DNA of 23,773 nucleotides from a virus: positions 1-23,773 of the IMG/VR virus record IMGVR_UViG_3300046001_002255; one strand, given 5' to 3'. Positions 3,376-21,464 of the stretch are shown here, one piece after another (position 1 is the stretch's first letter; the number at the start of each line of letters is the position of its first letter). Below the pieces are notes generated by a model. That model ran no database searches. It was not told where the DNA came from and worked only from the letters and a program-made list of their open reading frames with translations. Position numbers and translations under genes: made by a program.

Positions 3376-4478
3376 ACTTCGCAGTGAACTGTGTCGAACA
3401 GGGACAGCAGCACAGTATCGGCATCGTAAACAGCGCAGTCATCCATCGCTTGCATCAGCACCTCATCGGTGAGCATCCGCTTGTTCAAGAACTTGAGCGC
3501 CATGTCTGGGTCTTCTGGGTACGCAGCCTCTGCGATCATCTCAAGCAGGTCGTGGTGCATCCCACGCAGCGCGTCACGGATGCAGTCCTCAAGCATCTCG
3601 TTGTCCGTGTACCCATACGCCCCGTCATCGGCCCACTTGCCGTCCCATCCGGTCAGGCTTGCGGTGCTGTACATACTCTTCCAATTGCCCTGCATGACAG
3701 GCTCGATGTAGGTAGGGTCACGCTCGACAGGCAGCGCATCCCACTTGATCTTGATGGCAGCAGCAGCCAGCGCCGTGAAGTGGAAGATGTCGAGCGTCTC
3801 GCGGTCTGAGTGCTCGTTGTCGTAGCCAACGCTGATGTTGGTGCATTCGGGGATGATGTCCGTGAACTCGGCAGTGTCGGTGTACACACCTGTGTCATCG
3901 CCCAGATACATCAGCACACCATCAGCGCACAGCTCACCGGACAGCGTGGCAGCGAACTCGTCAGAGCAGCACCTACCCCAGCCCTGATGCGTGATGACGC
4001 TATCTATGCCCCGCCTGTCGAACGCAATGGCACGATCAAAGCAGGCCAGCAACTCGGGGCTATGGTCGGCAAGGTATTTCGCACCAATACCGCCGCGCTC
4101 CTCGCCCTGCGTGAAGATGTAGTAACCCGGCACATGCGCATGAAGCATGTGCATAAGCATTGCGCACCCAGCACCATCATCCGCGCCAAGGCAGGCACCA
4201 TCGGCGTACCACATGCCCTGCGTCTTCCTGATCTTGTTGGGGCCAGTTTCACGATGCACTGTGTCCACATGGGCTACGAACAATGTCCGGCTAGTGTCGT
4301 CAATGCGTGCGTCTACATGCAGGTTGCCACACTTGTCATAGCTGACGGCGATGTGATTGCGCTTGGGTAGGTGCGAGTGCAGCCAGTCCGTGAACTCAAT
4401 TACAGCGTGTGTGCCATGTGGCCGCTTCATTGACAGCGCACGGGAGAGGGTCTTGGAGAGAATAGATTTCTTGTTCAT
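3372..4478 (-). CDS. Zinc metallopeptidase, M20/M28/M42-like clan MH (368 aa)
   Basis: A complete co-catalytic zinc site is visible: H70 and D72 in FVAHVDTVH, D100 in LGADDGAG, catalytic E126 and ligand E127 in TQGEERGG, D154 in AFDRRG, and H223 in DNEHSDRE. The spacing between D154 and H223 is short, so the lid/dimerisation domain of classical M20 enzymes is absent. That points to a compact M28/M42 or peptidase-T-like aminopeptidase. Residues about 250-368 form an extra, acidic, mostly helical tail I cannot assign. No signal peptide is seen, so it should act in the cytoplasm on peptides or an amide-linked substrate. It overlaps the upstream gene by ATGA, with AAGGAA inside that gene's last codons. 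Confidence 0.88.
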   Translation of the reverse strand: MNKKSILSKTLSRALSMKRPHGTHAVIEFTDWLHSHLPKRNHIAVSYDKCGNLHVDARIDDTSRTLFVAHVDTVHRETGPNKIRKTQGMWYADGACLGADDGAGCAMLMHMLHAHVPGYYIFTQGEERGGIGAKYLADHSPELLACFDRAIAFDRRGIDSVITHQGWGRCCSDEFAATLSGELCADGVLMYLGDDTGVYTDTAEFTDIIPECTNISVGYDNEHSDRETLDIFHFTALAAAAIKIKWDALPVERDPTYIEPVMQGNWKSMYSTASLTGWDGKWADDGAYGYTDNEMLEDCIRDALRGMHHDLLEMIAEAAYPEDPDMALKFLNKRMLTDEVLMQAMDDCAVYDADTVLLSLFDTVHCEV

Positions 4479-5902
4479 GTTGATTCCTTAGTTGTTACTG
4501 TGGTCGGTGTCTTGTCTTCTTCATCGTCTGTCTCGGGCAGGTAGTCCTCGTGGTATGTCTCGCCGTCAATCTCGACAGGCGTGTCGTCATCGTGCAAGTA
4601 CCAGTTGCCAGACCCAGCGCACTCCCACGCCTCATCTTCGAGCGCCCACTCGCTGTCGTACAGTTGTACGCAGTCGTCACGCATTTGCCAATCACTGTTG
4701 TGGTCACAGACAACCGCATCGTCATCGCGGTGGTACCACGCATCCGCCGACTCGATATGCACCGCGTTATCCATCGAGCAGTACTCGCCGTCTTCCAGCT
4801 CCACGATGTTGTTGTCACCGAGGTAGTCGCGGTCGTAGTACTCTTCGTCAACATACACGGCCTCGCTGTCCGACACATAGTACGTGTTGCCCCTGCGCCC
4901 CGTGACCATCGTGTAGTCGTCGATGCAGCACTCACCCACGACATGATCGCCGTGATACCCGACACTGTGCTGGTCATCATCACTGACACGCGAGCCGCAG
5001 TCCGAACAACTGCATGAATCCTGCTCGGTCGCATGGCCGCAGGTGTTGGAGCATGACCAAGCACCATCGCTGCATATCTTGAGGAACCGCTTGTACTTGC
5101 CCTCTGGTATGTGCGCTGTGTCGATGTCTACGCACTGAGCGCTGCCGTCAAGGTACGGCGCGATGAACTCACTGTCAGCGTGCCGCTTGCCCGAAGCGAT
5201 GTACGCCAAGCGCTCGTTCTTCCAAGAGCCGCGATGCTCATACCCCTGCGACTTGAGCCACTGGATAAGCTCGTCATCGGGCTGCGAGTAGGTGTCGCCC
5301 GGATTGCTGCGGTAAGTACGCACGAAGTACTTGCCCGCAGTCTCGTCATTGTCCCGCTGCATGAGCAGCGCACGGCCCACGATCTCATGCCCCATGCGGC
5401 GCGTTGCCACATGCCAGCCGTAGCACGGCGCGTATGCCTCGTAGGGGTGATGCCCGATCTCGTCAAGGTCACCCTCGTCAGTCCACTTCATGCAGGAGCT
5501 AGGCCCTTCCTGCACCGCGTGGACGATAGCCTCGGTGGTGCGCTCGATGCGGAACGCGGATGCTGTAGCGTACTTGGCCACATAGTCCCTGATGATGTGG
5601 TCTGCCATGTCAGGCCAGTGGCGCTTCAAGTACTTGCCCAGCGAGGTCAGCACCTGCCGGTCATCCTCACCACCGCGCTCGTCACGGGTATAGGCCAAGC
5701 GGGTCACATCGGTGTCGGCCACATACGGCCACTCAAGCAGCAACTGCTGCCAGTCCTCTGGGTCGTGCATGTTGAACGCTGCGGCCACTGCGGGGTGCAG
5801 TGGGTTGTGTGACTGCTGGCGTGAGTGCCAGAAGCGTGAGTGGGACAGGATGCGGGCTGCGGTTGAGAAGTTCTTACCCTTCTCTGAATATCCTACGAAC
5901 AT
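4475..5902 (-). CDS. Cys-cluster protein with acidic tandem repeats (475 aa)
   Basis: Residues 1-270 form an apparently globular region, rich in His, Trp and Tyr, that I do not recognise. Residues 277-326 hold eight cysteines (C277, C284, C288, C297, C299, C302, C325, C326), consistent with one or two zinc-binding knuckles. Residues about 345-457 form roughly seven degenerate repeats of about 16 residues, each a V-x-acidic core, an aromatic residue (WY) and a D-D/N end (for example AVHIESADAWYHRDD). The tail is extremely acidic. The gene is coupled to the peptidase by ATGA, so the two probably act together. DNA mimicry or peptidase-substrate roles are speculation. Confidence 0.8.
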   Translation of the reverse strand: MFVGYSEKGKNFSTAARILSHSRFWHSRQQSHNPLHPAVAAAFNMHDPEDWQQLLLEWPYVADTDVTRLAYTRDERGGEDDRQVLTSLGKYLKRHWPDMADHIIRDYVAKYATASAFRIERTTEAIVHAVQEGPSSCMKWTDEGDLDEIGHHPYEAYAPCYGWHVATRRMGHEIVGRALLMQRDNDETAGKYFVRTYRSNPGDTYSQPDDELIQWLKSQGYEHRGSWKNERLAYIASGKRHADSEFIAPYLDGSAQCVDIDTAHIPEGKYKRFLKICSDGAWSCSNTCGHATEQDSCSCSDCGSRVSDDDQHSVGYHGDHVVGECCIDDYTMVTGRRGNTYYVSDSEAVYVDEEYYDRDYLGDNNIVELEDGEYCSMDNAVHIESADAWYHRDDDAVVCDHNSDWQMRDDCVQLYDSEWALEDEAWECAGSGNWYLHDDDTPVEIDGETYHEDYLPETDDEEDKTPTTVTTKEST

Positions 5903-5983: not shown

Positions 5984-6244
5984 TTACTTGCGCTTGGCCT
6001 TGGCTTTGGTTTCTTCCTTGACCTCGTAGTACCCCAGCCACTGCGTGCCCTCGACTTGGGGTTGGTACATCTTGATTTCGTACTTCGCATCGTGCGCCAC
6101 TGGCACGAGGAACAGGTTGTAGTTGAACCCGTCACGCTCCATGTGCTTGATGAGTTGGCGCAGGTCACGCTCTGGTGTTGTCGTTACCCACTGGCACACG
6201 CTTGATGCGTAGAAGTGCATGTTCTCTGGCATGTTGTCGTTCAT
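5984..6244 (-). CDS. Hypothetical early protein (86 aa)
   Basis: MNDNMPENMHFYASSVCQW, then a helix (RDLRQLIKHMERDG) and beta segments (NLFLVPVAH, YEIKMYQPQVEG), ending in a Lys/Ala-rich tail (KEETKAKAKRK). AAAGGAGAAAGCAA precedes the ATG and is coded by the last residues (GESK) of the upstream gene, which it overlaps by ATGA. No family recognised. A GGGGAGA palindrome follows the stop almost at once, so this is the last gene of its coupled run. Confidence 0.78.
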   Translation of the reverse strand: MNDNMPENMHFYASSVCQWVTTTPERDLRQLIKHMERDGFNYNLFLVPVAHDAKYEIKMYQPQVEGTQWLGYYEVKEETKAKAKRK

Positions 6245-6567
6245 TTGCTTTCTCCTTTGGTTAGTTCTTCTGGTATCTCGATGTCATCACCGAGCTTGCT
6301 TGCCACATAGCAGCGCATGGCTGCGATCAGGGGTGTGGGTTGGTTCCCCATACACGCATGAAGCCCCCCGTTTGGTAGCGGGCAATGTGCTGCCCACGCA
6401 CCACGGAATCGGTAGACGCCAATACCCTCACGCTCAATGATTGGCCCCGCCACTGACCAATCGCTTGAGTACCAAGCCCAGTCTTGATGGGCCAGAGTGA
6501 ATGTGTCCCCGTTAGCTGTTGCCACTGCCCAATCAAGGATTAGGTCTTTCATCTCGCTTGTCTTCAT
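6241..6567 (-). CDS. NinX-like protein (DUF2591 family, 108 aa)
   Basis: The order of motifs fits the phage NinX/DUF2591 family: MKTSEMKDLILDWAVA at the N-terminus, then WYSSDWSVAGPIIEREGI, then TPLIAAMRCYVASKLGDDI near the end. Length is typical. The original P22 gene lies in the nin region; the biochemical role of the family is unknown. It is ATGA-coupled to both neighbours and ends GESK, which encodes the next gene's ribosome binding site. The family assignment is from motif memory, without a profile search. Confidence 0.82.
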   Translation of the reverse strand: MKTSEMKDLILDWAVATANGDTFTLAHQDWAWYSSDWSVAGPIIEREGIGVYRFRGAWAAHCPLPNGGLHACMGNQPTPLIAAMRCYVASKLGDDIEIPEELTKGESK

Positions 6568-20882: not shown

Positions 20883-21464
20883 ATGGCGACTAAACCGGCA
20901 ATCGTTACCAAAAAGCAGCTCGAAGATTCGGGCTTTGATAATCTGCGCGATTACTTGAACGCTGAGCGCGGTTTGACTCGCCGTGACGGCCAAGTCGCAG
21001 TTCGCAAAGGTGAGATGGACATCAAGAGTCCTGCTGAAAAACGCAGCGCTACCCGAATGGCTGATGTTGCCGCGCAGAAACCTAGCGCTGAGCGCCGCAG
21101 CGACACGCGTTTGCGCGATTCGCAAAGTGCGTCTGCTTCCTCAAACGACGCCAATATGCTGCTTGTAGATTCTGCCGTGAAAGAGATTGGTGGCGGTCGT
21201 TCAGGTGGCCGAGGCGGTGCTGAAGCCGGTGAAGGGTCTGAGTCAAAACCCGCAGGTGCCTTTCGTGGCACGCGTTCTGACCCAAAACCTGAAGGTGCTT
21301 ATCGCGGCACGCGTTCTGACCCAAAACCTGAAGGTGCTTATCGCGGCACGCGTTCTGATATGAAAAAAGGTGGCGCAGTCAAGAAGATGGCTTCTGGCGG
21401 TTCCGCGTCCAGTCGTGCTGACGGTATTGCCCAGCGCGGCAAGACCAAAGGACGGGTCTGCTAA
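20883..21464 (+). CDS. Basic protein with tandem repeats and GKTKG motif (193 aa)
   Basis: The N-terminal 40 residues (TKKQLEDSGFDNLRDYLNAE, then RGLTRRDGQ) are a short folded-looking part. A Ser/Arg-rich linker follows, then 2.7 copies of a 13-residue repeat (GAYRGTRSDPKPE, residues about 125-160). The end is SSRADGIAQRGKTKGRVC. AAAGGAAAGATC precedes the ATG. It is probably a virion-associated or DNA-binding protein; the family is seen in related phages but I know no function for it. Confidence 0.8.
   Translation: MATKPAIVTKKQLEDSGFDNLRDYLNAERGLTRRDGQVAVRKGEMDIKSPAEKRSATRMADVAAQKPSAERRSDTRLRDSQSASASSNDANMLLVDSAVKEIGGGRSGGRGGAEAGEGSESKPAGAFRGTRSDPKPEGAYRGTRSDPKPEGAYRGTRSDMKKGGAVKKMASGGSASSRADGIAQRGKTKGRVC
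21255..21359 (+). repeat. 39-base in-frame tandem repeat
   Basis: Units at 21255-21293, 21294-21332 and a partial 21333-21359. Units 2 and 3 are identical over their shared length; unit 1 has a few changes (F for Y). Being a multiple of three, copy number can vary without breaking the frame. Confidence 0.9.

Follow-up and report, generated by a model that had tools for sequence, protein, structure and literature searches.

Zinc peptidases of the M20/M28/M42 clan and acyltransferases of the GNAT superfamily are among the described systems closest to the locus presented here. M20/M28 enzymes are exopeptidases that usually work free of any adaptor. The GNAT superfamily (RimI, VipF, FemX, MprF, ATE1) has a canonical acetyl-CoA loop, (Q/R)xxGx(G/A), between beta4 and alpha3. 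In phages, a GNAT-type protein has been tied to host-protein proteolysis: Rac of the phiKMV-like phages leads to cleavage of host RNAP alpha and contains a pocket for acetyl-CoA, with no phage-encoded peptidase reported as its partner (PMC7552054). Three further protein groups, phrog_6980, phrog_13313 and phrog_23053 (Klebsiella phage KP34 gp10, Pectobacterium phage Phoria gp33 and Thermus phage P74-26 gp1), are all of unknown function, and were previously not joined together. Here we describe a family that unites them and its pairing with a peptidase; we name it the SCM family, after the invariant core residues S136-C137-M138. No description of the family or of the SCM-peptidase pair was found in the open-access literature and database libraries searched, and by that measure we rate the pair as categorically new.

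The window, by which we mean the whole stretch of DNA analysed (23,773 nucleotides), is a 23.8-kb IMG/VR fragment whose terminase is about 50% identical to the terminases of Pelagibacter phage HTVC027P and phage DSL-LC04. Its SCM gene and peptidase gene are coupled through an ATGA in which the TGA stop of the former overlaps the start of the latter, as the preliminary description had proposed, and the eight-cysteine cluster that it reported is likewise present, with cysteines at residues 277, 284, 288, 297, 299, 302, 325 and 326 of the open reading frame. The features are collected in Table 1.

Table 1. Features of the SCM-peptidase locus in the window, with the basis of each assignment.
Feature	Position	Strand	Basis
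M20/M28/M42-type zinc exopeptidase-like protein, 368 aa	3372..4478	(-)	Pfam, PHROG, site residues
SCM-family protein gene	4475..5902	(-)	ORF, 475 aa, ATG start; homologous to Rhizobium phage Pasto gp4; family alignments A2, A3, A6
N-terminal helical region, residues 1-63	5714..5902	(-)	AlphaFold2 secondary structure and alignment
Conserved core, residues 64-256, GNAT-like fold (suggestive only)	5135..5713	(-)	A6 (69 sequences), two structure models, fold matches
S-C-M motif codons, residues 136-138	5489..5497	(-)	69/69 in A6
Zinc-ribbon-like segment, residues 297-330 (C299-x-x-C302 ... C326)	4913..5014	(-)	Conservation and alignment
Acidic beta-hairpin array, residues 339-456	4535..4888	(-)	Motif count, autocorrelation, AlphaFold2, hhalign to L147
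ATGA stop/start overlap, SCM gene TGA stop and peptidase start	4475..4478	(-)	Sequence

Family members were gathered from loci on viral and bacterial contigs, and seven residues (S136, C137, M138, Y157, R177, P249 and D252) are invariant in 69 aligned cores (alignment A6), in which the GKYL stretch at 89-92 is near-invariant. Three close relatives outside this set (L029, L039 and L188) carry Ile in place of Met, that is SCI instead of SCM, and keep the Cys. In the N-terminal region, W25, H36 and EWP 57-59 are conserved in the alignment of the freshwater clade. Pasto gp4 matches the window protein across 90% of its length (E 7e-16) and in turn matches the Klebsiella KP34-type gp10 proteins of phrog_6980, to which the SCM core is homologous (best E 2e-14 from family members). 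P74-26 gp1 (P74p1) carries the SCM signature and is matched by the A6 profile (E 3e-12); the signature is also found in proteins of crAss-like Cellulophaga phages and of megaphages. For KP34 gp10 and Phoria gp33 the next gene downstream encodes a peptidase of the phrog_4191 type, and through this neighbour and the core signature the SCM core belongs to a phrog_6980 / phrog_13313 superfamily. The gene for Pasto gp4, too, stands immediately upstream of a peptidase gene. The window protein is linked to these PHROGs by way of intermediates, for example Pasto gp4 and L092, and the arms and N-termini differ. Thermus P74p55, which adjoins the peptidase, was considered as an SCM protein and rejected, the true one being P74p1. 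One viral contig (L255:1-3657) holds four tandem SCM-family open frames, a possible paralogue expansion.

Profile searches with the window protein returned no credible match to a known family in Pfam, PHROGs (E 0.1) or NCBIfam, and PADLOC gave none for either the SCM protein or the peptidase at E up to 1. The same holds for a PDB sequence search with the protein or its profile, and weak Pfam matches to Rz1, LIM and Zn_ribbon_8 fell under the cut-off and were rejected. The preliminary description knew of no named family for this protein, and this is borne out, the related PHROGs being themselves of unknown function.

Loci reached by way of the peptidase give a biased sample, so pairs were counted only at loci found via SCM-protein patterns, 100 of which have at least 600 nt downstream of the SCM gene, some of them near-duplicates. 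The peptidase lies directly downstream in 98 of these; L147 makes a 99th, scored as missing merely through open-frame overlap, and the only true exception is L140, whose 43.8-kb record contains no peptidase. When the cores are clustered at 80% identity, 68 of 71 are paired; L140 is among the remaining three, which probably also include loci truncated at the end of a contig. Distances among SCM proteins and among their peptidases are correlated (0.92, reached in 0/999 permutations), as would be the case for any pair of genes inherited together. More telling are the independent arrangements of the pair. The gene order is reversed, with the peptidase before the SCM gene, in the crAss-like Cellulophaga phages phi40:1 and Calle_1 and once in a megaphage (L262, pair adjacent); Mesorhizobium sp. 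STM 4661 (L093, contig C43, 103523-110014) has two complete pairs in tandem; Thermus phage P74-26 has both genes unlinked, 29 kb apart; and the Limnohabitans plasmid pTEGF4 carries a pair. Each megaphage genome encodes 4-8 of the peptidases and 2-7 SCM proteins, and among annotated phages the counts of the two families by host are near equal (Klebsiella 231/230, Vibrio 42/42, Escherichia 10/10, Shigella 4/4). An SCM-family gene on a 75.6-kb contig (L254:3335-5002) had no peptidase match within the 8.6 kb examined; related peptidases of Lactococcus phiQ1, Bacillus PJN02 and L091 gave no SCM match, and no SCM-peptidase fusion was found in the three long megaphage peptidase frames checked. The gene-neighbour survey thus gives strong support to the two-part system with the peptidase that had been hinted at from the window alone, and we regard the pairing as almost certainly real.

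The clan of the peptidase is known, and the protein is a new member of it. Two Pfam profiles match it over their curated cut-offs, PF01546 (E 1.5e-6, 28.7 bits, cut-off 24.6) and PF04389 (E 3.1e-5, 24.2 bits, cut-off 21.3); it also matches phrog_4191 (E 1e-69) and is PepT-like (TIGR01883, E 7e-7; PDB 3rza and 3gb0). The putative di-metal site (HxD, D, EE, D, H) is complete, and H70, D72, D100, E126, E127, D154 and H223, which we take to be the metal and catalytic residues of the M20/M28/M42 clan, are invariant in 143 sequences, so that the protein is likely an active peptidase. It differs from described M20/M28/M42 zinc peptidases in that it is nearly always encoded with an SCM protein, and in that its megaphage and crAss-like members bear extra zinc knuckles; the crAss-like peptidase has C-terminal CxxC pairs, and one megaphage peptidase (L257:1979-4000) a long CxxCxGxG array (PF00684, E 5e-6, below cut-off). 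In megaphage LR756502, a RimB-like zinc-protease gene (L237:3987-4391; PF05618, E 3e-17) stands just upstream of an M20/M28-type peptidase gene that has no SCM gene nearby.

The AlphaFold2 model of the window SCM protein, built on an alignment of 48 rows (the window and related loci), has a mean pLDDT of 90.3, and the core folded alone reaches 88.7. Foldseek with VIA-align placed only GNAT-type proteins in the top 50 rows, matched on residues ~112-228, and the amino-acid transferases FemX, MprF and ATE1 are among the top matches. The best match of the full model (Z 7.8, 2.9 A, 90 residues, Foldseek E 0.008) lies below the tool's caution line, and the core alone gave an identical match list with no gain (best Z 7.1). 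The predicted order of strands and helices in the core agrees with the GNAT superfamily, as do all top structural matches; with Z below 8, under the tool's trust line, 'GNAT-like' is therefore only a lead, and the resemblance of the modelled core to this fold is suggestive only. The canonical (Q/R)xxGx(G/A) loop after beta4 was not seen by eye on the alignments, where loops vary: the window has VRTYRSNPGDTYSQPDDEL at this position and L140 has RLYGDEFRLRGRL, with no fit among those looked at. Pfam acetyltransferase-domain profiles found no match among 48 family members at E up to 1, and to our knowledge the invariant SCM cysteine has no GNAT counterpart. A viral fold match named 'amidoligase' also appeared among the structure matches, given without a range.

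Behind the core, the cysteine cluster is conserved across the family only in part, as a ribbon C299-x-x-C302 ... C326, in which C299 is invariant and C302 and C326 are present in >95% of the aligned sequences. The fourth ligand is Cys in most relatives and Gly323 in the window protein, with C325 adjoining. The arm that follows is strongly acidic, with 43 D/E vs 5 K/R in residues 341-475 and a net charge of about -38. A motif consisting of an aromatic residue, 2-3 residues, an acidic pair and V/A/I, chosen post hoc, occurs seven times in 341-458 vs a mean of 1.4 in shuffled sequence, and 2 of 5000 composition shuffles reach seven. In a plain autocorrelation the highest values fall at lags 14 and 30, a level attained by 39 of 2000 shuffles. 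The arm had been described as about seven acidic repeats of 16 residues in a beta-like array. The number of units stands, and a strict 16-residue period was rejected, the repeats being irregular and about 14-18 residues long. Structure prediction of the repeat by AlphaFold2 gave a regular and confident strand array of short hairpins (pLDDT about 95), which agrees with the beta-like array, and we find these better read as decayed zinc-ribbon hairpins. The array profile aligns to the tail of L147 (hhalign E 2.3e-8, 36% identity), in a stretch that ends in a canonical zinc ribbon, CDNCGEYFKSDD, aligned to LED-GEYCSMDN of the window. Of the tails compared, only L089 provides another, weak bridge; hhalign found nothing between the array and the window family's own zinc ribbon or the tails of L140, L088 and L142. 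The window array has scattered Cys only, with no paired CxxC ligands per unit, and keeps C299, C302 and C326. From this sequence comparison, with its one strong bridge (L147), we conclude that the acidic array probably descends from zinc-ribbon hairpins stripped of their metal ligands.

Compared across relatives, the arm is the most variable part of the SCM protein, and the enzyme-like core the conserved one. Acidic hairpin arms occur in the window, in most freshwater phages and in the megaphage L261. In L140 (L140:3866-5221) about five CxxC...CxxC ribbons replace the acidic array, and L140 and L147 are in this respect like LIM and zinc-ribbon arrays. A megaphage SCM protein (L260:912-2876) has a long array of CxxCxGxG knuckles (PF00684, E 0.003, below cut-off), which, as in the L257 peptidase, are of the DnaJ type. 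The window arm differs from these cysteine-rich arms in having lost most metal ligands and in its acidic hairpins. Bradyrhizobium phage BDU-MI-1 and L093 have a near-neutral to basic tail in the arm position, and the tails of relatives span net charges from -55 to +5. DnaJ-type knuckles bind polypeptides, and since knuckles are borne by both a megaphage SCM protein and a peptidase of a different megaphage, a polypeptide client is favoured.

That the two genes almost always occur together in bacterial viruses of very different kinds suggests a two-part tool, so far undescribed, for use by such viruses inside their hosts. Our preferred reading, put forward tentatively, is that of a conserved two-gene phage module in which the SCM protein and the peptidase would act on a single shared polypeptide during host takeover or counter-defence. 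What the data support directly is that the two genes are near-obligate partners even in distant phages, that each partner has invariant residues and that the arm is exchangeable. In the SCM protein, a GNAT-like core containing the invariant Cys, Tyr, Arg and Asp would lead into a zinc ribbon and then into an arm that serves for recruitment and can be exchanged, in the window the acidic array. The arm may capture a polypeptide client, the core would hold it and possibly modify it covalently via C137, and the peptidase, its di-metal site intact, would hydrolyse an amide bond of the client, either trimming its end or removing a modification. The takeover or counter-defence setting has thin support, namely an ArdA gene adjoining the pair in Pasto, an rIIA-annotated gene adjoining it in BDU-MI-1, and the analogy with Rac, for which no homology is claimed; SCM proteins differ from Rac in having no obvious acetyl-CoA loop and in coming with their own peptidase. 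The two gene products could also share a pathway without a common substrate. The pair is found together or co-present in hundreds of sequenced phages (>200 KP34-like Klebsiella records, crAss-like phages, Thermus phages and megaphages), and so strict a coupling between the enzyme-like SCM protein and a peptidase whose site is intact implies that phages follow a general strategy here.

A rival account makes the two proteins antagonists: the SCM protein would be an acyl- or aminoacyl-transferase, perhaps acting via C137, that adds an amide-linked group to a protein of the host or the phage, and the peptidase would remove or trim it, so that tagging is reversible. The exclusively GNAT top fold matches, with FemX, MprF and ATE1 among them, and the invariant Cys, Tyr, Arg and Asp of the core fit such chemistry, amide-bond hydrolysis is the chemistry of the peptidase superfamily, and one megaphage peptidase adjoins the RimB-like protease; against this, the fold similarity is weak, an acetyl-CoA P-loop is not obvious, no donor site was identified and the RimB-like neighbour is a single case. 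We consider this account unlikely, and equally so its fuller form, in which a Cys-dependent GNAT-like transferase puts tags on host or defence proteins and the peptidase takes them off or trims them, in podoviruses, crAss-like phages, Thermus phages and megaphages alike. If true, it would constitute a phage-borne reversible protein-modification system.

About as improbable is that the SCM protein is an inactive adaptor delivering a client to the peptidase, in the way of antizyme and other protease adaptors. The preliminary description had considered a substrate or adaptor joined to a protease, which may yet be right. Near-obligate pairing and an exchangeable C-terminal arm are what such a role would produce, but seven invariant core residues, several of catalytic type, suggest chemistry, M20/M28 exopeptidases usually need no adaptor, and the genes are unlinked in the Thermus phage and in megaphages. 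Less probable again is nutrient or peptide salvage, in which amino acids released by the peptidase would feed phage synthesis and the SCM protein would regulate the enzyme; the PepT-like similarity of the peptidase agrees with this, but neither the near-obligatory partner nor the multi-copy paralogue expansion in megaphage genomes would be explained. The preliminary description also suggested a DNA mimic processed by the peptidase. This reading, in which the acidic array would block some DNA-binding protein of the host, is very improbable, despite the charge of the array and the ArdA gene beside the Pasto pair, since relatives carry zinc ribbons, DnaJ-type knuckles or non-acidic tails in place of the array, the predicted hairpins are short, conservation sits in the core, and the family does not conserve an acidic surface of the ArdA/Ocr type.

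Elsewhere in the window, a P22 NinX-type protein (PF10765, E 5e-16) is encoded at 6241-6567(-) in the leftward block of the SCM gene, and the structural-gene half includes a 193-aa protein with tandem GAYRGTRSDPKPE repeats at 20883-21464(+).
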